Shown in pieces: positions 6,298-24,110 of a DNA stretch of 64,000 nt. The number at the start of each line of letters is the position of its first letter. Within the stretch, counting starts at the first letter, position 1. The notes under the pieces were generated by a model, which saw only the letters and a program-made list of their open reading frames with translations, was not told the DNA's origin and did not search any database. A program made the translations under genes and the position numbers. This DNA is from Azoarcus sp. DN11 (GTDB lineage: Bacteria; Pseudomonadota; Gammaproteobacteria; Burkholderiales; Rhodocyclaceae): contig NZ_CP021731.1 in NCBI RefSeq assembly GCF_003628555.1, forward strand, positions 3,472,001-3,536,000, given 5' to 3'.

Positions 6298-6304
6298 TTG
6301 AACC

Positions 6305-6370
6305 GTCTCCTCCACCCTCCTCCTTTGGTGTGGATTTAGCCCGAGCCGAATACCGCGCTCGGGCTTTTTT
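6305..6370 (+). ncRNA. Putative small RNA, copy 1 of a three-member family
   Basis: About 66 nt, predicted to start at G6305, 8 bases after the -10. Two hairpins are visible. In the first, TCCAC pairs with GTGGA and exposes CCTCCTCC in the loop, complementary to a strong Shine-Dalgarno sequence. The second is a terminator stem AGCCCGAGC / GCTCGGGCT (6338-6346, 6357-6365) ending in a T-run. The 33 bases from the start to GTGTGGATT are shared with copy 2. It ends 4 bases before the stop of the convergent lysR gene, so the hairpin may terminate both. RNA identity is inferred from structure and conservation; no transcript data. Confidence 0.65.
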
Positions 6371-6374
6371 CTTT

Positions 6375-7425: not shown

Positions 7426-8865
<1,440 letters not shown>

Positions 8866-9044
8866 CGCTGCTGCCCGGCAACGTACCGCAACCCGGCCAC
8901 GGCATGAGCCGGCCGTTGCTGCGGTCGGGCCGGGCCGGGTTTATATTGCATCGCAGCACATGCAAGACATTCCGAAAAACATCTGCGCCTATTGAGCCAT
9001 ACGAATATCTGATCGCTCGATAGAAAACTTGTAGAACAACTTTA

Positions 9045-9073: not shown

Positions 9074-9080
9074 TCAACCC

Positions 9081-9143
9081 GTCTCCTCCACCCTCCTCCT
9101 TTGGTGTGGATTTAGCCCGGACCTTCAAACGTCCGGGCTTTTT
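9081..9143 (+). ncRNA. Putative small RNA, copy 2 of a three-member family
   Basis: About 63 nt from G9081, again 8 bases after the -10. Hairpin 1 pairs TCCAC (9087-9091) with GTGGA (9106-9110) around a 14-base loop holding CCTCCTCC (9092-9099). Hairpin 2 is the terminator AGCCCGGAC / GTCCGGGCT (9114-9122, 9131-9139) followed by T's. The stem bases and loop of hairpin 2 differ from copy 1 while pairing is kept, which supports a functional terminator. It lies 215 bases after aspA with its own promoter. Short reading frames overlapping it (for example 9045-9251) do not look coding. Confidence 0.68.
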
Positions 9144-9350
9144 CTTTTCCGGGCCAGCCTGCGCTGGCTTGCCAGCCCCCGAGTCCGGGCGAGTGCGCGT
9201 GGTTCGGATCGGGTTGAAGTCCCGTTGAAGGCGACGCAACGGCCCGCATGAACGCGCGGGAACGCACGCCAGGAGGCATGGCTTGCGATCGGTCGATGGC
9301 GGTCATTTATGCCTCAAATCACCCCATGAGAACTTCTCACATGCTTATAG

Positions 9351-9379: not shown

Positions 9380-9386
9380 TTCAACT

Positions 9387-9461
9387 GTCTCCTCCACCCC
9401 TCTCCTCCTTTGGTGTGGATTGCAGCCCGGGCCCCCTCCAGAGCCCGGGCTCTTTTTTTTT
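9387..9461 (+). ncRNA. Putative small RNA, copy 3 of a three-member family
   Basis: About 75 nt from G9387, 8 bases after the -10. It keeps the 5' block with TCCAC / GTGGA hairpin, but the loop reads CCCTCTCCTCCTTT, a 2-base longer variant that still exposes CTCCTCC. The terminator stem AGCCCGGGC / GCCCGGGCT (9424-9432, 9443-9451) is GC-richer than in the other copies and is followed by a run of 9 T's. It converges on the end of the amine-dehydrogenase operon, whose last stop codon is only 6 bases away. Confidence 0.65.
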
Positions 9462-9466
9462 CCTGG

Positions 9467-10513
9467 TCAGGCCGCGGTCGGCACCTTCGCTTCCGCATCG
9501 CCAACCGCCTGCTGGCTCCGCACCTCGGGGTAGTAGCACATGTAGCCGCCTGCGCAGTGGCTCGGTGCGTCGCGCAGGCCGACGGCGAACTCGCGTACCG
9601 CGTCTTCCGGCTCGCCGGCCGCGATCCGCTCCAGCACGCGGGCGACGAGCTCGACGCTCTTGATCTTGCGCTCGCTCGCACCCTCGCGGCCGGCGATCTT
9701 CACCGCATGCACACCGGCCGCATGCATCGCCGGCATCGCGCAGACGCCGCACGGTCCCCAAGGGTAGCCGTTCGGCGCGGTCGAGAAGCCGTTGCCGAAG
9801 CGGTACCACAGCCAGCGCTTGTAATCGAGGTCGTTCTGTTCGAGGCGGCGCAGTGCGCGCTCATGCGGCTGGCCGCCGTCTGTTGCGCGGTATTCGAACT
9901 GGTAGTTGTCGATGCAGATCGGGCCGCCCTTGTTCATCGGCAGATGCACGGTATGACAGGTGCCTTCCTCGAACACGCAGCCGTCGTTGAGGACGAAGGC
10001 TTCGATGTCGAGGTCGGGCAGCGCTTCCGTGATCGCGCCGATCTCGGCGACGGTGACGTCGCGCGGCAGGATGATGCGGTTCGCCCCGAGCGCGGCGAAG
10101 AAGCGCGCGGACTCGACGTTGCGGCAGGTGGCGACGGAGCTGACGTGGATGTCGAGGTCCGGCACGTTGGCGGCGAGCGAGGCGATCAGCGAGATGTCGG
10201 CGACGATCGCCGCCTTGCCGCCGATGCTGCGAAAGCGCGTGCCGATCTCGGTGAGCGCGTCGAGATGCTGCTCGCCGTATTGCTGGGCGTTGAGGACGAG
10301 GAAAACCTCGGCGTCGAGCGCCGTGGCCTTGTCGACGACGCGTTCGAGATCCGCGTAGCCGTTGAGATTGCCGAACACGCGGCGATTCACGCCGGAGGTG
10401 TTGAACCGCTGGATCCAGTCGGGCGGGACGACGCCGCAGTAGAGTTCGCGGGCACCCGCGCGCACGAGCGGTTCGACTTCGGCCGGGGTGCTGATGGGGG
10501 CGGTAATTCGCAT
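9467..10513 (-). CDS. U32-family protein, UbiU-like (putative Fe-S O2-independent hydroxylase partner), end of the qhp operon
   Basis: A 348-residue protein of the U32 'peptidase' family. It aligns by eye with E. coli UbiU: HVSSVATCRNVESARFF..RIILPRD, then EAFVLNDGCVFEEGTC (C179, C186; the U32 C-x6-C motif), C200, PCGVC (C255/C258) and VKIAGREG. UbiU uses four such cysteines to hold a [4Fe-4S] cluster and, with UbiV, hydroxylates the ubiquinone ring without O2. Length (348) is close to UbiU. It is the last gene of the amine dehydrogenase operon, one base after the UbiV-like gene. A ubiquinone role cannot be excluded, but the context suggests modification of the QhpC tryptophan. Confidence 0.75.
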   Translation of the reverse strand: MRITAPISTPAEVEPLVRAGARELYCGVVPPDWIQRFNTSGVNRRVFGNLNGYADLERVVDKATALDAEVFLVLNAQQYGEQHLDALTEIGTRFRSIGGKAAIVADISLIASLAANVPDLDIHVSSVATCRNVESARFFAALGANRIILPRDVTVAEIGAITEALPDLDIEAFVLNDGCVFEEGTCHTVHLPMNKGGPICIDNYQFEYRATDGGQPHERALRRLEQNDLDYKRWLWYRFGNGFSTAPNGYPWGPCGVCAMPAMHAAGVHAVKIAGREGASERKIKSVELVARVLERIAAGEPEDAVREFAVGLRDAPSHCAGGYMCYYPEVRSQQAVGDAEAKVPTAA

Positions 10514-10514
10514 G

Positions 10515-11417
10515 TCAGGCTCCCGAGAGGACGATGCGGTTGACCCAGCCGTTCTTCACCGCTTCGGCAACGGCAGTGGCCATACCCTTCGCGTGACGGT
10601 AGTACATCGTGTTGCCGCGTTGCGAGGTGGGGAGTTCGTTCGTGCCGGGCCGTGCGCCGACTTCGTTGAAGCCGAGGCATTCGCGGCGGCACTTGTGGCC
10701 GGGCGAGAATTTTTCCGGGGAGTCGAGCGAGAGCGAGCCCAACTTGCAGATGCGCCCCTTGGCGATGTAGCCGTAGGGCGCGCGCACGCCGACGGGAAAA
10801 TCGATGCCGGCGTACATGTCGGCCGCGCCGAAGGGCGGGAAGTCGAGTTCGAGGCGGCCGATGCCGAGCCCGTCGAGGATGTCGCGGAAGGGGCCGGCGC
10901 GCAGGCCGTTGGGGTACATGCGCGCCCAGGTGGCGGACGGCAGGCGCGGGTCCTTCAGCATCTTGCCGAGCAGGCGTCCGGCGACCGGCCGCAGATCGGG
11001 GAACTCGCGCTGCACGAGGCGCGCGATGCCCCAGTCGTTGACGGTGACTTCGGCGCCCGCCGGCAGGCGTGCAAGCGCCGCGCGCAAGGGCGGAAACAGG
11101 CCGTCGCAGGCGATGGGCGTGACGAGGCCGAAAGTGAGGCCCCAGCGTTCGCACAGCGCGACGGCGCGGTCGATGGCTTCGACGCTCGGCAACAGGTGTT
11201 CGCAGAACTCGCTGCCGAGGAAGAAATGCGTCGGCTCGGCGTCGTCGGGGAGCGCGACACAGTCGCGGGCCTCGCCCAACGGGTCGAGGTAATCGTCGCG
11301 GGTGAGGCGTTCGTGGCGCGCGAAGGACGCGAGTTCGCGTTCGTCGACGAGGGCGAAGCCCAGTTCGATCGGTCGGGTACCGCTGTCGGGGGTGGGGGTG
11401 TGCTGTGTGCTTGTCAT
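10515..11417 (-). CDS. U32-family protein, UbiV-like (putative Fe-S O2-independent hydroxylase partner)
   Basis: A 300-residue protein. FFLGSEFC (C72) matches the YLGxxxC element of UbiV, and a later C224-x18-C243-x3-C247 set matches UbiV's C-x12-C-x3-C, so all four [4Fe-4S] ligands seem present. UbiV is 292 residues. The region VNDWGIARLVQREFP is also UbiV-like. Its ATG (11417) overlaps the qhpE stop in an ATGA, so translation is coupled to qhpE; the UbiU-like gene follows after 1 base. Such tight linkage to qhpE supports a role in CTQ biogenesis. The general U32 fold is clear; the function is inference. Confidence 0.72.
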   Translation of the reverse strand: MTSTQHTPTPDSGTRPIELGFALVDERELASFARHERLTRDDYLDPLGEARDCVALPDDAEPTHFFLGSEFCEHLLPSVEAIDRAVALCERWGLTFGLVTPIACDGLFPPLRAALARLPAGAEVTVNDWGIARLVQREFPDLRPVAGRLLGKMLKDPRLPSATWARMYPNGLRAGPFRDILDGLGIGRLELDFPPFGAADMYAGIDFPVGVRAPYGYIAKGRICKLGSLSLDSPEKFSPGHKCRRECLGFNEVGARPGTNELPTSQRGNTMYYRHAKGMATAVAEAVKNGWVNRIVLSGA

Positions 11418-12109
11418 GAATCGATCTCCGCGATTCTCTTGTGTTCCCGCCCATGCCAGCTGGCGCGGGCGGCGAGGAGTTCCACGAGCCCGTCGGGGCG
11501 CGCGGAGGGAAAGTCGGCGAGGACGCGTGCGACGATGCCGGTGAAGCGCGCCGCCGCCATGCTGGCGCCGCCAGTCGCTCTTGCGGGACCCGCGGGCGAG
11601 CAGCCCCAGCCGGCGCCGCCGGACGTCTCGCCCTGCAGCAGCGACCACTGCCCGGGGGCGCAGCGCGCATCGCCGCTGACGGAGAGCACGCCGGGATAGG
11701 TTGCGGGGAATACCGGCGTGCCGCGCGCCGGCGCTGCGGCGACGAGCACGACGCCTTGTGCGAGCGCACGGGCGCAGGCGTCGCGCAAGACCGTGCGGTC
11801 TTCGAGCAGGCCCAGGCTCAGATTGACGACACGCGCGCCCTCGCCGGCACACCATTCGATCGCGGCGGCGACCATCGCAGGCGTGGGGGCGTGCTTGTGC
11901 GAGGCGATGCGGGCGTCGATGAGGCGCGCCGCCGGCGCGGCCTCGAGCACGAGCGCCGCCACGGCTTCGCCATGCGGCAGCGGGCGGCCACCCACGGGCG
12001 CACGACACACGTTTCCATCGGGAACCGGCGCAAAGCTCGCCGCCCGATGCAGCACGTGCGAAGGTACGCGCGCGAAGCCGCCGTCCACGATGCCGACCAT
12101 GACGCTCAT
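11414..12109 (-). CDS. qhpE: Subtilisin-like protease of quinohemoprotein amine dehydrogenase biogenesis
   Basis: A 231-residue compact S8-type serine protease without signal peptide or propeptide. The catalytic triad can be placed at D9 (GIVDGG), H46 (LPHGEAVA) and S183 (GGASMAAA, against the usual GTSMA). The oxyanion-hole asparagine of subtilisins appears replaced (AAAPARG near 125). QhpE is known from Paracoccus as an unusual subtilisin-like enzyme that removes the leader peptide of QhpC in the cytoplasm. Position between the ABC transporter and the U32 pair, with 4-base ATGA overlaps on both sides, fits this. Function assigned by family and context. Confidence 0.85.
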   Translation of the reverse strand: MSVMVGIVDGGFARVPSHVLHRAASFAPVPDGNVCRAPVGGRPLPHGEAVAALVLEAAPAARLIDARIASHKHAPTPAMVAAAIEWCAGEGARVVNLSLGLLEDRTVLRDACARALAQGVVLVAAAPARGTPVFPATYPGVLSVSGDARCAPGQWSLLQGETSGGAGWGCSPAGPARATGGASMAAARFTGIVARVLADFPSARPDGLVELLAARASWHGREHKRIAEIDS

Positions 12110-13824
12110 ACGATCCTCAGCAAGGGTGCGGCGGGCCGGGTCGGCACATGCTCGACGAGGCGGCCGTCGCGCAGCTCGACGACTCGGTCGACCGCGCCGA
12201 CGGACGCGAGGTTGTGGGTGATGACGATGCGGGTGCGATCGGCGAAGACATGGTCGACCGCCCCGATGATCGCCTGCGCGACGGGGAGGTCCAGCCCGGA
12301 AGTCGTCTCGTCGAGGATCAGCACTGCCGGGTCCTGCAGGATCGCGCGGGCGAGCGCGATGCGCAGGCGTTCGCCACGCGACAGGGCCGCCGCGGATGCG
12401 CCGACGGGCCGGTCGAGTCCGCCGGCGTGGGCGAGCTTCGCGAGGCCGGCGAGATCGAGCGCACGCAGCAGCGCCGGCTCGTCGGCGCCGGGGGCGACGA
12501 AGCGCAGGTTGTCGCGCACGCTGCCGGGCGTCAGCACCGGCTCCTGGTCGACGACGACGACCTGCCGACGCAGTTCGGCGAGGTCGAGCAGATCGAGACG
12601 CACGCCGTCGAGTAGCAGGCGTCCGGCCTGCGGGTCGTAGTGGCGCTGCAGCAGGTCGATCAGCGTCGATTTGCCGGCGCCGGATGCGCCGACAAGCGCG
12701 AGCTTGGTGCCGGCCGGGATGTCGAGCGTCGCGCCGTCGAGCACCGCCTCGGCGCCATAGCCGAAGCGCACGGCGTCGAGCCGCAGTTCGCCGCGCACCG
12801 GCTGCGCGAGCGGGACGGCGTTCGCCGGAGACTGCACGGTCGGCTGCTCGGCGGCGAGCTCGCGGATGCGCTGCAGGCTGACCTTGGCGCGCTGCCAGCC
12901 CATGAACACGCCGGCGAGCGTCTGCAGCGGCCCGGCGGCGCGCGTCGTGTAGGCGATGAAGGCGACGACGACGCCGACCGACAGCTCGCCCGCCGCCGCC
13001 ATCGAGCCGCCGACCGCGAACACCAGCAGCACGCCAATGCCCGACAGCAGACGCTGCAGGCCGCCCGCGCCGAGAGACGCGAGTTGCGAGCGGCGCAGCG
13101 CGGCGAAGTAGTCGCCGTGGTGCGCGCGCAGGCCCGCCTCCTGCCGCCGCGCGGCGTTGGACGCCTGGATGAACTTCATCGCGCGCAGCGATTCGACGAA
13201 GAAGCTCGACATCGCGGCGCTTTCCTTGCGCATCGCCTGCGCGCTTTTTTCGAGCCACGGGCGCGTGAACATCAGCGCCGCGACCTGCAGCGGGACGAGC
13301 GCGAAGACGAGCGCCGTGAGCAGCGGGCTCAGGGACAGCATCAGCACCAGTGCGACCGTGAGCGAGAACGCGCCATTGAGCAGCGCCATCGGTGCGTCGA
13401 GGGCGAAGCGCTGCACTTCGGCGACGTCACCGTCGAGGCGCGACAGGATCTCGCCGCCGCGCGTGCGGGCATAATAAGTGGGCGCGAGGGTCTGCAGGTG
13501 TCGCCAGACCTGCTCGCGCAGGCCGAACAGGACGTGGGCGGAGAGCTTCAGGTAGGTGAGCCGGGACAGCGTTTCGACGAGCACGCCGCCGACCATCAGG
13601 ACGAGGAAGGCCGCGCAGAGCCACAGCACCAGACCGACCTTGCCGCCGACGATGCCGTCGTCGACGAGACGCTGCGTGAGGTAAGGCGGCAGCAGCGCCG
13701 CAGCCGAGCCGATGCACGACAGGACGACGACGCCGGCGACCATGCGCGCGCGTTCGCGCACCAAGGGCAACGCCCAGGCGAGGGCCTGGTGGGGCAAGGA
13801 GCGGCTGCCGTTCAGCGGGATCAT
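12106..13824 (-). CDS. qhpF: ABC transporter (fused permease-ATPase), QhpF-like
   Basis: A 572-residue half transporter: about six membrane helices in the first 320 residues, then an ATPase domain with Walker A GASGAGKST, Walker B AVLILDE and the switch histidine in VITHNLAS. The signature motif reads LSRGE instead of LSGGQ. In known qhp operons QhpF is an exporter thought to carry the processed QhpC subunit to the periplasm. ATG 13824 was preferred to the upstream ATG 13845 because the GGAGG ribosome site lies between them, 8 bases before 13824. The stop overlaps the qhpE start (ATGA). Confidence 0.86.
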   Translation of the reverse strand: MIPLNGSRSLPHQALAWALPLVRERARMVAGVVVLSCIGSAAALLPPYLTQRLVDDGIVGGKVGLVLWLCAAFLVLMVGGVLVETLSRLTYLKLSAHVLFGLREQVWRHLQTLAPTYYARTRGGEILSRLDGDVAEVQRFALDAPMALLNGAFSLTVALVLMLSLSPLLTALVFALVPLQVAALMFTRPWLEKSAQAMRKESAAMSSFFVESLRAMKFIQASNAARRQEAGLRAHHGDYFAALRRSQLASLGAGGLQRLLSGIGVLLVFAVGGSMAAAGELSVGVVVAFIAYTTRAAGPLQTLAGVFMGWQRAKVSLQRIRELAAEQPTVQSPANAVPLAQPVRGELRLDAVRFGYGAEAVLDGATLDIPAGTKLALVGASGAGKSTLIDLLQRHYDPQAGRLLLDGVRLDLLDLAELRRQVVVVDQEPVLTPGSVRDNLRFVAPGADEPALLRALDLAGLAKLAHAGGLDRPVGASAAALSRGERLRIALARAILQDPAVLILDETTSGLDLPVAQAIIGAVDHVFADRTRIVITHNLASVGAVDRVVELRDGRLVEHVPTRPAAPLLRIV

Positions 13825-13844
13825 TGTAAGCGCCTCCAAACCCA

Positions 13845-13932
13845 CAGGGCGGATGAGCCGAAGGCCGAGGCTGCCGGATGAGCTGCCGAACCCGCGGCCG
13901 ACATTTGGCGGAAGGCGCTCCGCTTTTCCGCC
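13845..13932. repeat. REP-like intercistronic repeat between qhpB and qhpF
   Basis: The block CAGGGCGGATGAGCCGAAGG and the next bases (13845-13867) recur almost unchanged at 20162-20184 (one base shorter). It is followed by an imperfect hairpin with arms GGCGGAA (13907-13913) and TTCCGCC (13926-13932). This layout resembles repetitive extragenic palindromes of betaproteobacteria. Confidence 0.55.
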
Positions 13933-14081: not shown

Positions 14082-15179
14082 TCAGCGCTTCACCACCCGC
14101 ATCCAGCCGATCGACTGGTCCGCCCCGCCGGGCATCGTGATCTCGCCCTTCTTCTCCAGCGTCTCCGCGTCGTGGATGGACACCTTGTCGAGCGCGCCGC
14201 CGACATAGACCTCCTTGCCGTCGCCCGAGATGTTGATCGCGTAGAAGGTCTGAGGCAGCTCGACGCGTTTGAGCAGCTTGCCGGAGTCGGTATCGACCTT
14301 GCTCAGCTGGTTCATCACGAGGAAGGCCTCGTTGCGCCGGGCCGGGTTGATCACCGACGAGAACATCACCGTCGTCGCGTTCTCGAACTCCCTGACTTGC
14401 AGCGTTTCCGCGTCGAGGTCGAACATCGCGATGCCGGCCTTGAACGCTTCCGGCGAATCGGGCGGAACGTCGGTCTTGGCGACGAAGTACGGTGTCGACA
14501 GCACTCGCGCCTGCTCGTAGGTGCCCCACATCGCCAGCACGTCCGGCTCACCCATGCCCGGCCGCTCCCAGTGCCGGATCGGGAAAGTCTTCTCGAGCTT
14601 GCCGCTCTTGGTGTTGAAGAGATACATGTCCCAGCCGAGCGCAATCACGTGATCCGGATTGCCGGTCGGCGCGAGCAGGCTGATGCGGCGCGGCGCCGGG
14701 AAGGTGCGGCGCGGCTTCGCGTTCAGGCCGTCGGCGGTGTCGAAGACGGCGATGTAGGTGTCCTCGACCTGGTACTCGGAGCGCCCGAGCTGCACTGGCG
14801 CCTGATGGGCGTAGAGCTCCTTGCCGTCCTCGCTCACGGTGACGGCGAAAAAACCCTTCACGCGCCGCTGCGGCGTCGAGAAGTCGGCGCGGAACACCGG
14901 CTTGCCGGTATCGAGATCGACGCCGACGACGCTTTCCATGCGATTCGTGAGCACGTACGCGACCTTGCCGTCCTTCGGCACGGAGATTGCGCCGGGGATG
15001 CCGTCGCCGGGCAGCACGATCGTGCGGATCACCTCGCGCTTCTCGGGATCGATGACGTGCAGGTTGTTCGGGCGCGTGACGGTCAGGAGGTATTCCTTGG
15101 CGAACGCCGGCAGCGACGCGGCCGCGCAGCATAGGACCACCAGCGCCGCTCGCGCCTTCTTGATGGGCAGCATCCTCAT
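14082..15179 (-). CDS. qhpB: Quinohemoprotein amine dehydrogenase beta subunit
   Basis: A 365-residue periplasmic protein. The signal peptide spans about residues 1-27 (basic start, hydrophobic core, ASLPAFA cut site). The mature part consists of repeated seven-bladed beta-propeller-like strands (NLHVIDPEKREVIRTI, VDTDSGKLLKRVELP, SIHDAETLEKKGEITMPG), as in the known QHNDH beta subunit. It forms part of the substrate pocket beside the CTQ-bearing gamma subunit. It begins 3 bases after qhpC. The adjacent alpha, gamma and QhpD genes make the assignment secure. Confidence 0.93.
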   Translation of the reverse strand: MRMLPIKKARAALVVLCCAAASLPAFAKEYLLTVTRPNNLHVIDPEKREVIRTIVLPGDGIPGAISVPKDGKVAYVLTNRMESVVGVDLDTGKPVFRADFSTPQRRVKGFFAVTVSEDGKELYAHQAPVQLGRSEYQVEDTYIAVFDTADGLNAKPRRTFPAPRRISLLAPTGNPDHVIALGWDMYLFNTKSGKLEKTFPIRHWERPGMGEPDVLAMWGTYEQARVLSTPYFVAKTDVPPDSPEAFKAGIAMFDLDAETLQVREFENATTVMFSSVINPARRNEAFLVMNQLSKVDTDSGKLLKRVELPQTFYAINISGDGKEVYVGGALDKVSIHDAETLEKKGEITMPGGADQSIGWMRVVKR

Positions 15180-15182
15180 CGC

Positions 15183-15503
15183 TCAATCTCCCGGGAAAAG
15201 CGTCTGCAGTTCGCGCCAGTCACGCAGCGCCGAGTTCTTGCCGTCGGTCCAGTCACGCGCGGTGTTCAGGCTGTCGGCGAGCTGCGCCGGCCACCAGCAG
15301 GGGTCGGTGCAGCCGTAGAGATCGGCTTCCATCGGCTGGCACAGGCTGGCCAGTCCGCCGAAGGCATCGACTTCCCAGCCGGGGTCGAAGGTCGTCGTGC
15401 AGCCGACGACGCTGCTCATCAGCTGCACTTCCTCGCGATGGCCGTCGCTGGCCGCCTGTTCGATCAGGTGCGCCTTGTGGTTCAGGGCTCGCAGTCGTTT
15501 CAT
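15183..15503 (-). CDS. qhpC: Quinohemoprotein amine dehydrogenase gamma subunit precursor (CTQ-bearing)
   Basis: A 106-residue precursor. Taking the first 28 residues as leader, all cofactor and cross-link positions known from QHNDH crystal structures fall in register. They are Cys7-Glu16, Cys27-Asp33 and Cys41-Asp49 (thioether bridges) and Cys37-Trp43 (the CTQ cofactor); in precursor numbering C35, E44, C55, D61, C69, D77, C65 and W71. The leader ([16 protein letters not shown]...) is charged and not a Sec signal, consistent with cytoplasmic modification by QhpD, cleavage by QhpE and export by QhpF. The start overlaps the qhpD stop by ATGA. Confidence 0.96.
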
Positions 15504-16927
15504 TGCAGGGCACTCCTTTGTTCGAGGGCGGCGTTGAAGAACGCCGGGTTGGCGAGCGCGATCTCGCCGAAGGCTTCGAGGCCGAAGGCCGTCCATGCGC
15601 GGATCTGGTCGCAGTATTCGAAAGTCGGCTGGAAGGGGTCGCCGGAGCGCGAATACGATTCGTGGTAGCAACCGCCCGCGCACAGGCTGCGCGCGGGGCA
15701 GACCTGGCAGGCGCCGTGCGGGGCCTGGGCGCGGGTCATGAACTGCGTGAGGGACTCGCGGGCGATGCCGTTGTCGACGTCACCGAAGGTCTCCAGCCCG
15801 GAGCCGGTGAAACGGTGGCACAGCGAAATCTTGCCGCTGGTGCCGACCGCCAGCAGACCGACGCCGGCGCCGCAGGGCAGCACTTTCCGCGTGCCCATCC
15901 ACAGGTCCGTCATCAGCTGCTGCATGTTGCCGAAGCCGTGACGACGGCCGCGCTTGGCCTCGCTGATGTACTCGCGCCCCAGAGCCTTGAAGGCTTCGAA
16001 GACGATGTCGAGTTCCTCACGGCTCAACCCGACCGGCGAATCGGGGCCAGCGGTCGCGGGCGCGAAGCCGACTTCGAAGAAACCCAGCTCGTCGTGGAGA
16101 TGCTTGTAGATGGCGGCGACGTCGAGGTTGCCGGAGGCAAGCGTGACGCGTGCCCCGACCGGCTTCGATTTGTAGCGTTCGAGCAAGCGCTTCACGCGCA
16201 TCGCGACCGTCCTGTAGGTGCCGCCGCCGGCGATCGTGCGGCGATGGCGATCGTGCTGCGCCTGGTCGCCGTCGATGCTGACGGTGATGCCGAAGCGGTG
16301 CGCGTCGAGGAAGTCGATGATCTCGTCGGTGAGGAGCGTCGCATTGGTCGTCAGCGAGAACTCGGCCTCCTTGCCCGCCGCGGCGGCCTTGTCCTCGGCA
16401 TATTCGACGAGGTCGCGGATCACCGCGATGCGCGTCAGCGGCTCGCCGCCGAAGAAGACGATGCCGACGCGCTCGTTCTCGCACGCCTCGTCCATCAAGA
16501 GGTCGATCGAGCGCGCGCCGGTCTGGAAGTCCATCACCGAGGAGTTCTTCGGCGAGGTCAGGTCCTCGCGGTAGCAGTAGCTGCAGCCGAGGTTGCAACC
16601 GGTGGTCAGCGTCAGCACCAGCGTCTTCAGCGGCGAACGTTCGACGATGCGCGCCGGGATCTCGTAGTGCTTCGGCTGCGGCGCGACGATGCCGAGGTCG
16701 ATGAAATCGCTCAGGCTGTCGCACAGCTCGGCGGGCGTGTAGCGGCCGTCGAAGCGGCTCTGGATGTCGTCCGCGCTGACCGCGGGCGTCGCCTCGAACA
16801 GCCCGAGCAGCTCGGATGCGGCCGGATCGAGCTCGAAGATCGAGGTCGTCGGCACGTGCAGCAGCACCTGCCGGTCGCCCTTGCGGACCGCACGGTAGTT
16901 GTGGGGTTGGATCTGGAGCGTTGCCAT
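15500..16927 (-). CDS. qhpD: Radical SAM/SPASM thioether-bond forming enzyme
   Basis: A 475-residue cytoplasmic enzyme that installs the Cys-to-Asp/Glu thioether bridges in QhpC. Residues about 10-85 look like a peptide-recognition (PqqD/RRE-like) domain. The radical SAM cluster motif CNLGCSYC (C111, C115, C118) is followed by FFGGEPL and SIDGD. The C-terminus has a SPASM-type set of cysteines ([30 protein letters not shown]) for auxiliary Fe-S clusters. GGAGAG precedes ATG 16927. It lies 18 bases after qhpA, in the order A-D-C-B typical of qhp operons. Confidence 0.95.
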
Positions 16928-16945: not shown

Positions 16946-18547
16946 TCAGCGCAGCGGCGTCGGGTTCCAGCGCTGCACGGTGACCATCAGGTGCCCTTTT
17001 GCATCGAGCGCGCGCTCTCCGTCGGCCACGGTCGCGACGACCGCGAGGTTGCCGACGTTATTGAGGCCGCGGCGGTTCGGATTCGGGCCCGCGAAAGCCG
17101 GCAGGAACTGGCCATGCGGCTCCATGTGGCCGGCGAACTTCAGGTCCTCGTCGTGCTTCGCGCGCTCGTCGAAAGGTTCGGCCGACCAGGTTGCGGGGAC
17201 GCTGCCGAGACGCACGTCGTCGTCTGTGCCGGCCTTACCGTCCGGCCCGTTGAGGTAGGCGACCGCATCGAACTGCGCGGACGCCGGCGGATTCGTGCCA
17301 CCGCCCAGACGCGCGATCGCGAACGCGGGCTCGACGCGCACCGAATCGATCTGCCGGTACACCGCCAGCGTCTGCCCCGACTCGCGGCCACCGACCGCGA
17401 CCTTGCGCACGCCCTGCGGCGCATCGGTCGCGACCTTCACACGCAGCTTCAACACGTCGGCCGACTTGCCGAGCCATTCGACGACTTCCACGCCGGGGCC
17501 GAGATCGACCTTCGGGTCGAGCCCGGCGCCCGCAACCGTCACGGTCGCCGTCTCACCCGCACGCAGCATCTTCGGGCTCACCGAGACGACCGCGTTCTTC
17601 GCCGCCTTGTCGGACCGCAGCGCTTCGAACGTCGCACCGATCTCCTCGGCGTTCTTCAGGAACCAGCGCCCGGAGATCCGCGAGCCGTCCTCGCTCAGCG
17701 CGAAAACCGCGCGCGTGTCCTCGTTGCCGAGCCGCGTCGAACCGCGCCATTCGTAGCCCGTGTAGATCACCGCATCGCCGTGGCCACGCACCGTATTGCC
17801 GGGCCCGAAGTGCAATTCGTAGTTCACTTCGTACTTGTCCTTGCCCTTCGGGACGGCAGTCATCGTGCCGGTATAGGGGCCCCAGCCGGGCCGCTCGCCC
17901 GCGACCACCCAACGGCCGTCGGCCGGGCGGTGCTTCGCACGGCTCCAGTCGCGCCAGGCATCGGTGTTCTTCGGATACAGGCCCGCCAGCCGCCCCGGCA
18001 TCTTGTCGCGGGCGATCTCCCACCAGTTGCGGTCGCGTCCGAGGGCTGAGTATTCGGCGCTCGGGAACTGGCCGAGGTGGGTGTGCATCAGCTTGCGCCA
18101 TTCGTCCTCGTCGCGGCGCTGCAGCGCGACGCGCCCGAAGCTGTGGCAGCGGCCGCACATCTGGGCGAATTCCTCGTCGGGCGGCGTGTCCTGCGTGTTC
18201 GGCCGGCGCTCCATCAGGGAACGGAACGCGGCGCTTTCCGCTGGCGCCAGACCCTGGCGGTCGGCGAGGTACTTCACGACGGCGCGGCGCTCCTCGGTCG
18301 TGAGTTCGACCTTGTGCCAGATGCCCATGCGCGTAACCGTCATGTCCCAGCCTTCGGGCGACTTGCGGATCTCGGGGATGCGCGTGAGCTTGCCGCCCTC
18401 CAGGTGACAGCTCACGCATTTCTTGTCGATCACGTCGCGTCCGGGGTCCTGGGCCGCCACGGCGGCTCCCCCAAGTCCGATCGCCAGCGCGAGCGCGCCG
18501 ACACTGCGCAGAGTTCTGCGCGTAATTTTTCTGGTCTCCGCCTTCAC
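16946..18547 (-). CDS. qhpA: Quinohemoprotein amine dehydrogenase alpha subunit (diheme)
   Basis: A 533-residue periplasmic subunit that passes electrons from CTQ to external cytochromes. Signal peptide about 1-32 (RKITRRTLRS, hydrophobic core, AAVAA). Two c-type heme sites: CVSCH (C44, C47, H48) and CGRCH (C131, C134, H135). Beta-rich domains follow, including Ig-like segments. GTG 18547 was chosen as start: GGAG lies 6 bases before it and it gives a normal signal peptide. Longer frames to 18748 would overlap the aldehyde dehydrogenase gene. Together with qhpB and qhpC it forms the amine-oxidising heterotrimer. Confidence 0.94.
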   Translation of the reverse strand: MKAETRKITRRTLRSVGALALAIGLGGAAVAAQDPGRDVIDKKCVSCHLEGGKLTRIPEIRKSPEGWDMTVTRMGIWHKVELTTEERRAVVKYLADRQGLAPAESAAFRSLMERRPNTQDTPPDEEFAQMCGRCHSFGRVALQRRDEDEWRKLMHTHLGQFPSAEYSALGRDRNWWEIARDKMPGRLAGLYPKNTDAWRDWSRAKHRPADGRWVVAGERPGWGPYTGTMTAVPKGKDKYEVNYELHFGPGNTVRGHGDAVIYTGYEWRGSTRLGNEDTRAVFALSEDGSRISGRWFLKNAEEIGATFEALRSDKAAKNAVVSVSPKMLRAGETATVTVAGAGLDPKVDLGPGVEVVEWLGKSADVLKLRVKVATDAPQGVRKVAVGGRESGQTLAVYRQIDSVRVEPAFAIARLGGGTNPPASAQFDAVAYLNGPDGKAGTDDDVRLGSVPATWSAEPFDERAKHDEDLKFAGHMEPHGQFLPAFAGPNPNRRGLNNVGNLAVVATVADGERALDAKGHLMVTVQRWNPTPLR

Positions 18548-18612
18548 TTCTGTCTCCACTCTCCGGTGAGTCAATGCGCTCCCCGCGCGCTGGCGGGAAG
18601 CGCCTCCCTCAC

Positions 18613-20115
18613 TCACAGCGCCATGATCACGGACTTGGATTCGGTATACAGGTCGAGCACCGCCCGCCCCATCTCGCGGCCGATGCCGGACTGCTTGAAG
18701 CCGCCGAAAGGCATCGCGTTGTCGAGAATGTTGTGGCAGTTCACCCACACCGTGCCGGCCTGGATCTTCGGGATCAGGCGATGCACGCGCGAAAGGTCGT
18801 TCGACCAGATGCTCGCGGCGAGCCCGTAGGGCGTGTCGTTCGCGCGCCGAGCAACCTCGTCGAGATCGTCGTAGGGCATCGCGACGACCACTGGCCCGAA
18901 GATCTCCTCGCGCACGACCTTCATGTCGTCGGTCGTATCGACGAGCACCGTGGGTTTCACGAAGTAGCCCGCGCCCTCGCCCGCCGCACCGCCCGTCGCG
19001 GCCCGCGCGCCCTCACTGAAGCCGCTCTCGATGTAGCCCAGCACGCGCTTTTGCTGCGTCGCCGACACCAACGGGCCGATCTGCGTCGCCGGGTCGATGC
19101 CGGCGCCGAGCTTCATGCTCGCGGCGATGCCGGAGAGGCCTTCGAGCACCTCGTCGAAGCGGCTCTTATGCACGAAGAGGCGCGACCCCGCCGTGCACAC
19201 CTGGCCCTGGTTGAAGAAGATCGCCTGCGCGGCACCGGCCGCGGCCATGCTCACATCCGCGTCGTCGAGCACGATCACCGGGCTCTTGCCGCCCAGTTCC
19301 AGCGACACGCGCGTCATGTTGTCGAGCGCGGCCTTGCCGACGAGCTTGCCGATCTCGGTCGAACCGGTGAAGGCGACCTTCTCGACGCCCTGGTGCGACG
19401 CGAGCGCCGCGCCCGCGGTGTGGCCCAAGCCGGTGACGACGTTCAGCACGCCCGCCGGGTAGCCCGCCTCCAGCGCCAACTCCGCAAAACGCAGCGCCGA
19501 CAGCGGCGTTTCCTCCGCCGGCTTCAGCACCATCGTGCAGCCGGTGGCGAGCGCCGGCGCCACCTTCCACGCCGCCATCAGCAGGGGAAAGTTCCACGGG
19601 ATGATCGCGCCGACCACGCCGACGGGCTGGCGCCGCGTGAAGCCGAAGAACTCGCGGTCGCGGATGATGGGCACCGACACGTCCATCGTCGAGCCTTCGA
19701 TCTTCGTCGCCCAGCCCGCCATGTAGCGCAGGAAATCGACCACCAGCGCGACGTCGACATGGCGCGCCATCATCACCGGCTTGCCGTTGTCGAGCGACTC
19801 GATCTCGGCCAGTTCCTGCGCGTTCGCCTCCACGAGGTCGGCGAATTTCAGCAGCAGGCGCTCGCGGTCGACCGGGCGCATCTTCGGCCAGTCGCCGCTC
19901 TCGAAGGCGCGTCGCGCCGCCGCGACGGCACGGTCGATATCTGCCGCTCCACCTGCCGGCACGCTGGAAAACTTCTCGCCGCTCGCCGGATCGATCACCG
20001 CCAGTGTCTCGCCGCTCGCCGCCTCCAGCCATTCGGGGCCGATCAGCATGCGCTGCGGACGCTGCAGAAAGCGCCGCGCGCCTTCGCTCAGTTGCTGTCC
20101 GTGGTAACGCTCCAT
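18613..20115 (-). CDS. NAD(P)-dependent aldehyde dehydrogenase (phenylacetaldehyde-type)
   Basis: A 500-residue cytoplasmic enzyme with the general-base Glu in LELGGKSP, catalytic Cys in GQVCTAGSR, and NAD-binding GSTEIGK. The overall pattern (IPWNFPLLM, NPYGLAA-like NDTPYGLAASIW, FGGFKQSGIGREMG) matches the FeaB/ALDH class 1-2 group. Immediately upstream of qhpA (65 bases), it should oxidise the aldehyde released by the amine dehydrogenase to the acid. FeaB-like phenylacetaldehyde dehydrogenase is a likely but unproven specificity, so no symbol is given. Confidence 0.9.
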   Translation of the reverse strand: MERYHGQQLSEGARRFLQRPQRMLIGPEWLEAASGETLAVIDPASGEKFSSVPAGGAADIDRAVAAARRAFESGDWPKMRPVDRERLLLKFADLVEANAQELAEIESLDNGKPVMMARHVDVALVVDFLRYMAGWATKIEGSTMDVSVPIIRDREFFGFTRRQPVGVVGAIIPWNFPLLMAAWKVAPALATGCTMVLKPAEETPLSALRFAELALEAGYPAGVLNVVTGLGHTAGAALASHQGVEKVAFTGSTEIGKLVGKAALDNMTRVSLELGGKSPVIVLDDADVSMAAAGAAQAIFFNQGQVCTAGSRLFVHKSRFDEVLEGLSGIAASMKLGAGIDPATQIGPLVSATQQKRVLGYIESGFSEGARAATGGAAGEGAGYFVKPTVLVDTTDDMKVVREEIFGPVVVAMPYDDLDEVARRANDTPYGLAASIWSNDLSRVHRLIPKIQAGTVWVNCHNILDNAMPFGGFKQSGIGREMGRAVLDLYTESKSVIMAL

Positions 20116-20702: not shown

Positions 20703-21674
20703 TTATTTGCCGGGAACGAGCCGCTCGACGCCGAGCTGACCGGCGACGACGACGGCCCCCGTCGGCGCCGCGACGACGGCGGCGAGGTTCTGGCGGTCGG
20801 GGCGGACCTCCAACTGGAAAGGCGCCGTCCCGCTGCCGCGCAGCACGACCCCGCCCGCACCGACGACGATCAGGCCGCCGTTCGCGAGTGCGATCCCCGA
20901 CGTGAGCGACTGCTCGGTCCCGGTATCGCGCACCTGCCAGCTGGTGCCGCCGTCGCGGCTCGCGATCACGCGCCCGCTCATGCCCAGCAGCACGATTTCG
21001 CCATCCGTTCGCTCCAGTCCGCTCCACAGCGAACCCGACACGCCGGTCGCGAGCCTGGTCCAGCTCGCGCCGCGATCGGTCGAACGGAACGCGACGCCGG
21101 TTTCGGCCGCGATGAAGAGCTTCCCGTCGCGGGTACCGAAGATGTGGTTCAGATGCAGGTCCCCATCGTGGCCGCTGCCCACCGCCAGGCGCGTCCATTT
21201 GTGACCGCCATCCCGCGTCACGAATGCCGCGCCGTACGCGCCGACCGCGTAGCCGCGTTGCGCGTCGGCGAAATACACCGACAGCAGCACCGGCTTGTCG
21301 TCCAGCGTCACCTGCACCTGCCAGGTCGCACCGCCGTCGGCCGTCGCGAGGATCACGCCGCCGTGGCCCACCGCCCAGCCGTGCGCCTCATCGACGAAAT
21401 GCACGGCGGTCAGCAGCGTGCTCACCGGCACCTCTGCCTGCTGCCAGGTCCTGCCCTCGTCGGCCGAACGCACGATCGTGCCGTAGTCGCCGACCGCGAC
21501 GAGCGCACTGCCCGCGCGCACCAGTCCCGTCACCGGCACCTTCGCCGCCAGCCGCGCCTTCATCGCCGGCGCCGGCACTTTCGCCGCTTCAGCCGGTGCG
21601 GCTGCGAACACCGTGGCGCTGGCCGCCAGACACAGGCCCAGCAGGGCCTGCCCGATACGATTGCCTGTCTTCAT
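20703..21674 (-). CDS. YCF48/HCF136-like beta-propeller protein, exported
   Basis: A 323-residue protein with a signal peptide (about 1-31, core ALLGLCLAASATVFAA). It has repeated BNR/YCF48 blades, each with the D-x-G-x-(T/S)-W pattern: SADEGRTWQ, TADGGATWQ, TRDGGHKWT, STDRGASWT, SRDGGTSWQ. ATG 21674 was chosen for the signal peptide; the open frame further upstream is the antisense of the RND gene. YCF48 proteins often act as assembly factors, and genes like this recur next to RND/MMPL and DUF1302/DUF1329 genes. It is 11 bases after the RND gene. Confidence 0.87.
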   Translation of the reverse strand: MKTGNRIGQALLGLCLAASATVFAAAPAEAAKVPAPAMKARLAAKVPVTGLVRAGSALVAVGDYGTIVRSADEGRTWQQAEVPVSTLLTAVHFVDEAHGWAVGHGGVILATADGGATWQVQVTLDDKPVLLSVYFADAQRGYAVGAYGAAFVTRDGGHKWTRLAVGSGHDGDLHLNHIFGTRDGKLFIAAETGVAFRSTDRGASWTRLATGVSGSLWSGLERTDGEIVLLGMSGRVIASRDGGTSWQVRDTGTEQSLTSGIALANGGLIVVGAGGVVLRGSGTAPFQLEVRPDRQNLAAVVAAPTGAVVVAGQLGVERLVPGK

Positions 21675-21685
21675 CGCGTCCCCCC

Positions 21686-24049
21686 TCAGTGGGCCATCAG
21701 CGGCGCACGGACGGGGCCGCGGCGCGGGATCAGCACGTCGATCGTCACCGCCAGCGCGGGCAGCAGCGTGATCGCCATGATCATGTTCATCATGAACATG
21801 AAGGTCAGCAGCATCCCCATGTCGGCCTGGAACTTCAGCGCCGAGAAGGACCAGGTCGCCACGCCGATCGACAGCGTCACCGCCGTGAATACGGTCGCCA
21901 CGCCGATCTCGCGCAAGGCTTGCTTGAACGCGGTGACGATGTCCTCGCCGTGCGCGAGGTGCATCTGCAGCCGGTTGTAGATGTAGAACGCGTAATCGAC
22001 GCCGATCCCCACCGCCAGCACCATCACCGGCAGCGTCGCGACCGTCAGGCCGATGTCGAGCGCCTTCATGAACCAGTAGCCGAGGAAGGTCGCCAGCGTC
22101 AGCGGCAGGCAGCACGCGACCATCGCACGCCAGTCGCGATACACCGCGAACACCAGCACCAGGATCGTGGCATACACGTAAAGCATCATCGGCAGCTCCG
22201 AGTGCTCGACCACCTCGTTGGTCGCGGCCTGCACGCCCGCGTTGCCGCTCGCGAGCCGCACCGTCACACCGGGGAAAGGCTGGGTCTCGCGGAAGTGCTT
22301 CACCGCCGCGACCACCTCCTTGATCGTCGACGCCTTGTGGTCCGCCAGATACAGGTTCACCGGCAGCAGCGTGCACTCCGGGTTGAAGAGGCGCATGCCT
22401 TCCGGCACCTGGCGCACCGCCTCGCCCAGCGTCAGCTCCTCCTGCGGGAGCGCGGCCCATTTCGGATTGCCTTCATTGACGCCCGAGGCCGCGAGCTTCG
22501 TCATCGCCGGCAGCGATTGCGCCGAGAGCACACCCGGCACGTTCGCGAGATACCAGGTCAGGCGGTCGACATGGCTCATGATGTCGTGGCGGTAGCAGCC
22601 ATCCGCGGGCGACTCGACCACCACCGTCAGCAGGTCCAGCCCGAGCGCGTAGCGCGCGACCACCGCCTCGACGTCCTGGTTGTAGCGCGAGTCGTTGTGC
22701 AGTTCGGGCGCCCCCGGCAGCACGTGGCCGACGTGCCGCCCCTGGCTCTGCCACACCGCGACCGCCAACAAGGCGAGGCACACCAGCGTGCCGATCGCGG
22801 CGTTGCGCGGATTGGCGATATGCACGCCGAGCGACGCCATCATGCGGTTGCGCAGCGCCTCCATCTTGGTCGCGCGCAGCACGAAGCGCTCGTCGAAGCG
22901 GAAGTAGCTCGCGACCACCGGCAGCATGATCAGGTTCGTCACGATCTTGTACGCAACGCCCACCGACGCCGTGATCGCGAGCTCGCGGATCATCGGGATC
23001 GGCACCAGCACCAGCGTCGCGAAGCCGACGAAAGCGGTGATCAGCGCCAGCGTGCCCGGCACCAGCAGGCCGGTGAAGCTGCGGCTCGCGGCGGTGTAGC
23101 CGTCGGCGCCGTTGATGACCTCCTTGGCGATGTAGTTCACCTGCTGGATGCCGTGCGACACCCCGATCGCGAACACCAGGAAGGGCACCAGGATCGCCAG
23201 CGGATCGAGGCCGAAGCCCAGCAGCGTGATCGTGCCGAACTGCCACACCACCGACACCAGCGAGCACGACAGCGGCAGGAAGGTCAGCAGCCAGGAGCGC
23301 GTATACCAATAGACGGCCGCGGCGGTCAGCAGGAAGGCGAGCGCGAAGAACTCGATCACGCTCGTCGCGCCTTCCGAGATGTCGCCCATCTGCTTGGCGA
23401 AGCCGATGATGCGGATCCTCACGTCGGCGTCGCTGAAGGTGTCACGCACCTCGCGCTCCAGCCGCTTGCTGAACTCCGCGTAGTCGAGACGCTCGCCGGT
23501 CTGCGGATCCGGGTCGGCGAGTTCCGCGACCACCATCGCCGACGATGAATCGTTCGCCACCAGCGAGCCGATGAAACCGCCGACGATCGTGCGCTCGCGG
23601 ATCGCCGTGATGTTCTCCGGCGTGAGCGCCTTCACCGTGACGTCGCCGCCGATCACGTCCTCGGCCTTCATGCCTTCTTCGGTGATCTGCACCGCCCGCG
23701 TGTTGGGCGTCCACAAGGACGTCACCGTGCGCCGGTCGACGCCCTTCATGAAGAACAGCGCCTGCGTCACGTCGTACAGCTTCGTCAGTGCCTTCTCGTT
23801 CCAGATGTCGCCCTGCTTCGCCTCGACGGTCACGATGATGCGGTTTGCGCCGAACAGCACCTCGCGATACTGGTTGAAGGTCTGGATGTATTCGTGGTTC
23901 TGCGGCAACTGCTTGTCGAAGCCCGCGCTCATGTGCAGGCGCGACGCGAACAGCGCCATCACCACGGTAAAGCCGAGCAAGGCAAGCAGGATCGGCAGGC
24001 GGTGCCTGAAGCACACGCGCTGCATCGTCCGCACGAGTCTCTCTATCAT
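21686..24049 (-). CDS. RND/MMPL-type transporter
   Basis: A 787-residue inner-membrane permease with two homologous halves. Each half has one TM helix, a large periplasmic loop and five more TM helices (for example FFALAFLLTAAAVYWYTRS and later MLYVYATILVLVFAVYRD). It resembles the MMPL/HpnN branch of RND carriers, which move lipids and other hydrophobic compounds, rather than the longer drug-efflux AcrB type; there is no periplasmic adaptor gene nearby. With DUF1302, DUF1329 and YCF48 it forms a recurrent envelope module. Substrate unknown. Confidence 0.88.
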   Translation of the reverse strand: MIERLVRTMQRVCFRHRLPILLALLGFTVVMALFASRLHMSAGFDKQLPQNHEYIQTFNQYREVLFGANRIIVTVEAKQGDIWNEKALTKLYDVTQALFFMKGVDRRTVTSLWTPNTRAVQITEEGMKAEDVIGGDVTVKALTPENITAIRERTIVGGFIGSLVANDSSSAMVVAELADPDPQTGERLDYAEFSKRLEREVRDTFSDADVRIRIIGFAKQMGDISEGATSVIEFFALAFLLTAAAVYWYTRSWLLTFLPLSCSLVSVVWQFGTITLLGFGLDPLAILVPFLVFAIGVSHGIQQVNYIAKEVINGADGYTAASRSFTGLLVPGTLALITAFVGFATLVLVPIPMIRELAITASVGVAYKIVTNLIMLPVVASYFRFDERFVLRATKMEALRNRMMASLGVHIANPRNAAIGTLVCLALLAVAVWQSQGRHVGHVLPGAPELHNDSRYNQDVEAVVARYALGLDLLTVVVESPADGCYRHDIMSHVDRLTWYLANVPGVLSAQSLPAMTKLAASGVNEGNPKWAALPQEELTLGEAVRQVPEGMRLFNPECTLLPVNLYLADHKASTIKEVVAAVKHFRETQPFPGVTVRLASGNAGVQAATNEVVEHSELPMMLYVYATILVLVFAVYRDWRAMVACCLPLTLATFLGYWFMKALDIGLTVATLPVMVLAVGIGVDYAFYIYNRLQMHLAHGEDIVTAFKQALREIGVATVFTAVTLSIGVATWSFSALKFQADMGMLLTFMFMMNMIMAITLLPALAVTIDVLIPRRGPVRAPLMAH

Positions 24050-24110
24050 TTCGGGTTATCCGTTGGGCCGGCCCTGCGGAAGTCACGCTCCCACAGGGCC
24101 GGCAGGTGCA

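Follow-up and report, generated by a model that had tools for sequence, protein, structure and literature searches.

The window analysed here, a stretch of 64,000 nucleotides from Azoarcus sp. DN11 (positions 3472001-3536000 of C1, the single contig of its 4.96 Mb genome G000), carries a qhp operon for an amine dehydrogenase with two additional genes at its end, here termed V and U. Their products very probably form an O2-independent U32 hydroxylase that makes the dihydroxytryptophan precursor of the cysteine tryptophylquinone (CTQ) cofactor, in place of or beside the flavoprotein QhpG. U (9467..10513, minus strand) encodes a UbiU-like U32 protein of 348 amino acids, the proposed hydroxylase subunit, and V (10515..11417, minus strand) encodes a divergent partner of 300 amino acids with a UbiV-like cysteine set. 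Transcription from the minus strand follows the order aldehyde dehydrogenase, qhpA, qhpD, qhpC, qhpB, qhpF, qhpE, V, U, with 9467 as the last position. The products QhpA to QhpE all exceeded the curated NCBIfam cut-offs and qhpF lies beside them, which identified the locus as a qhp operon. Beyond qhpA-F and the aldehyde dehydrogenase, V and U are its sole extra genes, and no other candidate oxygenase was seen among the frames of the operon or in a Pfam scan of it. The overlap of qhpF with qhpE comprises four bases, that of qhpE with V is ATGA (11414-11417), and the TGA stop codon of V is followed after 1 base by the ATG of U. Because of these short overlaps and the 1-base gap, the V-U pair looks translationally coupled to qhpE. 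The coordinates, frames and coupling that a preliminary description of this DNA had given for a U32-type pair after qhpE were found to be right.

In the systems studied so far, QhpG takes both oxygens from O2, as shown with isotopes, giving 6,7-dihydroxytryptophan (PMC7876137, in part). The gene qhpG has been described as essential in qhp operons and is lacking in this one. A QhpG profile search of the whole DN11 genome revealed no match at E <= 1e-15 (25 of 69 first-look candidates scored). This rejected the possibility that qhpG is merely located elsewhere in this genome, a finding that the preliminary description had named as one that would refute its interpretation. Clusters of the V type and of the QhpG type resemble each other in the CTQ region of QhpC, so that the QhpC tryptophan presumably still needs two oxygens.

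V was present in 20 of the 25 relatives with QhpC (this genome included) and in none of the 125 relatives without it (p 1.5e-20, kinship ignored). Among the 398 genomes of a phylum sample, V was found in a single one, that of DN11. A scan of public genomes for U gave 93 loci, and in the best 80 of them V and U were both scored in 78, V not being seen at L140 and L153. In all 78 loci the two genes lie on the same strand with V first, and in 67 they are within 60 bases of each other; with one strand and one order throughout, the arrangement is not due to chance. A qhp gene was matched in 58 loci, within 5 kb of the pair in every case and within 1 kb in 46, and the commonest order was A-D-C-B-F-E-V-U (25 loci). 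QhpC was present in 41 of the 44 tested genomes reached from U loci.

Genomes with qhp are on record for more than 1300 species (PMC7876137). For the comparison of V with QhpG, qhp genomes were chosen blind to both, via the QhpC family PF08992. This family occurred in 7 of the 398 phylum-sample genomes, 25 of the 150 relatives and 7 of the 337 genomes of an alphaproteobacterial class sample; two were met twice, which left 37 genomes, and a QhpC fragment of 24 bits in G406 was ignored. A QhpG profile (A3, 14 sequences) and a V profile (A1) were run over the whole genomes of the 37. The best PDB match of the QhpG profile was the peptidyl tryptophan dihydroxylase 7ctq with 466 bits, followed by CmlS with 103 bits. 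QhpG was called at >= 250 bits and, given the distance between these two PDB scores, matches of 60-111 bits were taken as other flavoproteins and discounted (G438, G471, G536, G408, G565, G548, G577, G575, G574 and G570). V alone was present in 14 genomes, QhpG alone in 16, both in 6 and neither in 1 (Fisher p 1.2e-4, kinship ignored). The sole genome with neither is an 86% complete metagenome-assembled genome (MAG) with a qhp contig of 5.4 kb. Genera other than that of DN11 gave 4 genomes with V only, 13 with QhpG only, none with both and 1 with neither (p 0.0016, kinship ignored). The V profile search found no V in the last six alphaproteobacterial genomes, and this absence was taken as true because the same profile gave matches in other searches. 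The idea that loci with neither gene within 20 kb (L043-L047, L070, L073-L075) lack both was rejected, as whole-genome searches gave QhpG or V for each. The two genes are distributed in a complementary manner, but mutual exclusion, the pattern that the preliminary description had named as support for its idea, is too strong a term. Regular co-occurrence of the U32 pair with qhpG, which it had named as a refutation, was confined to a minority of the sampled genomes. Because both occur in 6 of the 37 genomes but neither in just 1, an alternative route fits better than strict replacement. The proposal that the pair replaces QhpG fits this genome and the eight Bacillota genomes searched; action of the pair beside QhpG fits Thauera sp. 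28, the second cluster of Aromatoleum aromaticum EbN1 and others.

Kinship was addressed with a QhpD tree of 81 rows, from which identical QhpD rows and rows shorter than 400 amino acids had been dropped; rows from unsearched genomes were labelled from the locus alone. On this tree, state changes numbered at least 11 for V and 13 for QhpG. Over 8 independent pairs differing in V, QhpG was on average opposite in 3.6, the same in 0.1 and without difference in 4.3. The direction is consistent with complementarity and the power of the comparison is small.

U belongs to the Peptidase U32 family (PF01136, 141.5 bits, gathering cut-off 22.4), whereas V matched no Pfam or NCBIfam family, PF01136 included, and the six members of the V profile A1 gave no U32 match even at E <= 1. 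The earlier designation of both as U32-family genes therefore applies to U and not, by family match, to V. Placement of V in the U32 fold was indicated by profile-profile comparison with U (probability 92-96%), and U matched the UbiU profile with a probability of 99.7-99.8%. At the level of equivalogs, U scored 76.2 bits with the UbiU model NF047963 (cut-off 440) and 63 bits with the TrhP model (cut-off 534), and neither V nor three V relatives matched the UbiV model NF047965 (cut-off 275 bits). The predicted structures of U and V were both confident, with a predicted local distance difference test (pLDDT) score of 87 and 88, respectively. In fold searches of the PDB, the U model matched the U32 protein 5d88 best (E 4.7e-8), and the V model found it at rank 24 (E 1.1e-3), behind other barrel proteins. 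In sequence searches of the PDB with the U and V profiles the best E values were just 0.033 and 0.3.

In V, the cysteines C72, C224, C243 and C247 are invariant in 87 of 87 sequences; with 86 distinct full-length relatives that keep them, V as a chance frame was ruled out. In U, E171, C179, C186, C200, C255, C258, C320 and C326 are each invariant in 88 of 88 sequences. Each partner hence possesses at least four conserved cysteines, as UbiU and UbiV do, V having four and U seven, with different spacing. Both sets correspond to those listed in the preliminary description, to which C320 and C326 of U are now added. Hydroxylation by TrhP needs E162, C170 and C177, all of them essential (PMC6599085, in part). 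The E171, C179 and C186 of U are spaced identically (E-X7-C-X6-C). The iron-sulfur ligands are C169, C176, C193 and C232 in UbiU and C39, C180, C193 and C197 in UbiV (PMC6747719, in part), and the first three cysteines of U align with those of the UbiU encoded elsewhere in the DN11 genome. The three invariant cysteines of U (C258, C320, C326 or C255) that exceed the four-ligand need of UbiU possibly constitute a second cluster or a redox pair. To judge from the sequences, the metal or redox chemistry of U may go beyond that of UbiU.

One of the closest known systems is UbiU-UbiV of E. coli. Both are adjacent gene pairs, U aligns with UbiU over about 280 residues, V resembles UbiV in that one cysteine lies far upstream of three others situated towards the C-terminus, and both would act in ring hydroxylation during quinone making, which for qhp we infer. 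However, UbiU has four ligands and U seven invariant cysteines from C179 on, the spacing CX18CX3C in V differs from the CX12CX3C of UbiV, no UbiT partner is present in the qhp operon, and the substrate of V-U would be a protein. V-U is proposed to act on cross-linked QhpC at the step catalysed by QhpG, an FAD (flavin adenine dinucleotide)-dependent enzyme with a distribution complementary to that of the pair, but QhpG is an unrelated protein that depends on flavin and O2. The prephenate-dependent RNA hydroxylases TrhP and RlhA are U32 proteins, but act on RNA and as single proteins; TrhP shares its job with the O2-dependent TrhO, as V-U would with QhpG. MauG, LodB and GoxB, which make tryptophan tryptophylquinone (TTQ) or CTQ elsewhere, likewise finish a tryptophylquinone inside a protein (PMC7876137), but are di-haem or flavin proteins with no U32 kinship.

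In the mechanism that we propose, V and U would form a heterodimeric, Fe-S dependent, O2-independent U32-type hydroxylase with the QhpC protein as substrate. QhpD would first make the thioether cross-links in QhpC, and U-V would then add both oxygens to the CTQ-precursor tryptophan to yield 6,7-dihydroxytryptophan. Afterwards QhpE would cut the leader, QhpF would export the subunit and the haems of QhpA would complete the quinone. The oxygen source would be a donor other than O2, with prephenate, required by the U32 enzymes TrhP and RlhA, as the obvious candidate. The absence of qhpG, the presence of a separate ubiUVT set and the complementary distribution support the earlier interpretation that the pair makes the quinone oxygen-independently in the place of QhpG, the chemistry on QhpC being a prediction.

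The separate ubiquinone genes of this genome were clearly recognised. Its own ubiU (563 bits), ubiV (383.5 bits) and ubiT (128.6 bits) all exceeded their cut-offs and lie side by side at 446-456 kb, far from the qhp pair at 3.48 Mb. With this full set present, V-U was rejected as the ubiUV of the organism; the preliminary description had named such an assignment as one that would overturn its interpretation. UbiV exceeded its cut-off in 47 of 64 genomes searched, which among the 37 qhp genomes covered all except G062, G146 and six from the alphaproteobacterial sample. Of 55 V-carrying genomes in this search, 43 have a true UbiV too, including all 20 V carriers among the relatives, and V tends to accompany anaerobic ubiquinone making. 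No UbiV over the cut-off was found in eight Bacillota genomes with V-U (G558-G564, G567). Such Bacillota make menaquinone, not ubiquinone. UbiV over the cut-off was also missing from G058, G175, G304 and G324, four of the five QhpG-only genomes tested from outside the family, and from G447; G438, G471, G481 and G408 are QhpG-only genomes with UbiV.

Other functions of the pair have to be weighed against full dihydroxylation. V-U might do part of the oxygenation, such as the first, 7-hydroxylation, with the second oxygen entering by another route, for example through the haems of QhpA as with MauG in methylamine dehydrogenase (MADH). The two oxygens enter in separate steps in MADH, LodA and GoxA (PMC7876137), UbiUV take part in single ring hydroxylations (PMC6747719), and a pair in which each protein has its own conserved cysteines is compatible with partial as well as full oxygenation. 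However, QhpG adds both oxygens and V-U occurs without it in 14 of the 37 genomes, and in this operon V-U has no additional companion gene, which makes a partial reaction unlikely. A small-molecule role, in which the pair would serve ubiquinone or another such quinone and stand in the operon for the respiration of amine electrons, finds some support in the resemblance of U to UbiU and in the UbiV-like cysteines of V. It is nevertheless extremely improbable in view of the organism's own ubiUVT, the true UbiV in most V genomes searched, the eight Bacillota without UbiV over the cut-off and the absence of V from all relatives without QhpC.

The six genomes with both V-U and QhpG imply that V-U need not be the hydroxylase, and U32 proteins carry a peptidase annotation. 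The pair could accordingly be another accessory of QhpC maturation (a chaperone, a peptidase, or a protein assisting QhpD in redox or Fe-S functions), with the tryptophan oxygenated by something unrecognised. We regard this as quite improbable, since an unrelated helper would not give V-U or QhpG in 36 of the 37 sampled qhp genomes, cleavage is already done by QhpE, U retains the residues essential for TrhP hydroxylation and the operon contains no other candidate oxygenase.

Several observations weigh against an O2-independent CTQ hydroxylase. The kinship of V to UbiV is weak, with a profile-profile probability of 18% and of 1.9% in comparison with a single UbiV sequence. Position 241 of U, which aligns with the fourth ligand of UbiU, is occupied by Cys in 66 of 88 sequences but by Asn in the protein of this window, so that C255 or C258 probably substitutes for this ligand. 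In many genomes just a portion of the first-look candidates was scored by the whole-genome searches (with a maximum for V of 15 per genome in the relatives and 5 per genome in the phylum sample), so that absence is strong evidence but not absolute and a low-ranked QhpG could be missed. The tree-aware paired test was not significant (median p 0.25). Three genomes carry V-U without a QhpC match, namely a Myxococcaceae MAG (L149), a Clostridia MAG (L150) and Desulfotruncus alcoholivorax (L154), and for this reason the tie of the V-U family to qhp is not complete. V-U and QhpG coexist in 6 of the 37 sampled qhp genomes and also in 15 of the 49 genomes found via U loci and searched for QhpG, some of which had been included because of their QhpG. 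That the pair acts on QhpC, adds two oxygens, draws on a particular donor, binds Fe-S clusters and forms a dimer is inferred throughout. Finally, several of the Bacillota carriers are considered aerobes. This objection is weakened by the ability of UbiUV to hydroxylate without O2 even in air (PMC10470549, in part).

In L149, L150 and L154 no qhp genes were seen near V-U, and their U sequences are distant (36-39% identity); these pairs may form a branch of the family that stands apart from qhp and has a different substrate. Desulfotruncus is an obligate anaerobe. At L154 a DAHP (3-deoxy-D-arabino-heptulosonate 7-phosphate) synthase-like gene of the shikimate pathway, recognised by eye (8126-8944), adjoins V on the opposite strand. 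In the Bacillota (Aneurinibacillus, Bacillus, Brevibacillus and one Planococcaceae strain), the pair lies inside the operon, in the order C-A-D-B-V-U-F-E, with a weak B match of 56-89 bits. No QhpG was found by whole-genome search in the eight such genomes.

A single locus holds QhpG as well as V-U in three cases: L165 of Thauera sp. 28, and L065 and L068, which are the second clusters of G402 and G407, respectively. At these loci V-U stands beside an aldehyde dehydrogenase, plus QhpG, and they look like aerobic and anaerobic equipment at one place. O2-dependent and U32 routes are doubled in one organism for ubiquinone, with UbiIHF and UbiUV (PMC10470549), and likewise for tRNA hydroxylation, with TrhO and TrhP (PMC6599085). 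G402 is A. aromaticum EbN1, its contig C2 being 100% identical over 6000 bases to plasmid NC_006823.1. It possesses two qhpC genes with V-U at both clusters; cluster L066 has V-U without QhpG and cluster L065 has both, the single QhpG of the genome being that of L065. Two such dehydrogenases reportedly start anaerobic amine degradation in EbN1, to go by the title of a 2019 report by Schmitt et al., and the study reportedly also states that CTQ maturation needs no O2. If so, anaerobic CTQ formation can be taken as established, with V-U as the foremost candidate for the enzyme still lacking.

Four genomes of the genus to which DN11 belongs also encode QhpG-like flavoproteins, with 57-62% identity to the QhpG queries, at places without a neighbouring qhp gene (L156:9709-11100, plus strand; L157, L158 and L159), and these genomes were counted as having both genes in the tally. 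At L156 (G399), the gene precedes that of a 1992-residue protein with RTX (repeats in toxin) repeats. A second protein substrate for a QhpG-like flavoenzyme is possible.

The remaining genes of the operon all lie on the minus strand. The aldehyde dehydrogenase (18613..20115, PF00171, 596 bits), for the step after amine oxidation, is located upstream of qhpA and adjoins it in loci L051-L060 too. The alpha subunit gene qhpA (16946..18748 as longest frame; TIGR03908 722.3 bits, PF09098, PF09100 and others) has an uncertain start, probably further in than the longest frame. It is followed by qhpD for the radical SAM (S-adenosylmethionine) thioether synthase (15500..16927, TIGR03906, 739.7 bits), qhpC for the gamma subunit, which carries the CTQ precursor tryptophan and is the proposed U-V substrate (15183..15512; PF08992 147.5 bits, NF037958 162.9 bits), and qhpB for the beta subunit (14082..15179, TIGR03907, 506.7 bits). 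The ABC (ATP-binding cassette) exporter gene qhpF (12106..13845) was assigned by PF00664 and PF00005 and by its equal position in relatives; its longest frame opens with GTG at 13845 and the true start may be the ATG at 13824. The leader peptidase of QhpC is encoded by qhpE (11414..12109, NF049966, 234.5 bits). Past the aldehyde dehydrogenase, 20703-25913 (minus strand) contains genes for a BNR/YCF48-like protein (20703-22460), an MMPL transporter (21686-24049) and a DUF1302 protein (24111-25913). The Betaproteobacteria toxic small RNA (RF02278) was detected three times on the plus strand, at 6304-6372, 9080-9146 and 9386-9458 (61, 65 and 56 bits), each copy holding the exact stretch CTCCTTTGGTGTGGATT; the third copy lies on the strand opposite to U and ends 8 bases short of 9467, where U stops.

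To our knowledge, the studied tryptophylquinone routes use O2 or peroxide, and for the QhpG route the use of O2 is described (PMC7876137). No paper linking qhp or tryptophylquinone with U32 or UbiU was found among openly licensed PMC papers, and a description elsewhere is possible; PMC5023235, in the part available, names Methyloversatilis QhpA-C and no U32 protein. V-U is probably a U32 Fe-S enzyme of two proteins and the first hydroxylase known to oxygenate protein side chains independently of O2. With prephenate or a similar compound as likely donor, it would build a protein-derived quinone anaerobically in Proteobacteria and Bacillota. If this reading is right, the pair works like UbiU/UbiV without belonging to them by score, and adds a new substrate class to the O2-independent U32 hydroxylases.

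Such a function would close the gap between the reported anaerobic use of CTQ enzymes by a denitrifier and maturation routes that use O2 or peroxide, and would explain how bacteria growing without air can make amine dehydrogenases of this type. It would also give a function to the V family, nameless in the searched copies of Pfam and NCBIfam, and extend the U32 hydroxylases from RNA and lipids to proteins, with QhpC as a small, co-expressible substrate that could reveal the oxygen donor of U32 enzymes. After TrhP/TrhO and UbiUV/UbiIHF, V-U and QhpG would be the third case of a U32 hydroxylase duplicating an O2-dependent oxygenase, which would suggest a general chemistry for anaerobic hydroxylation.

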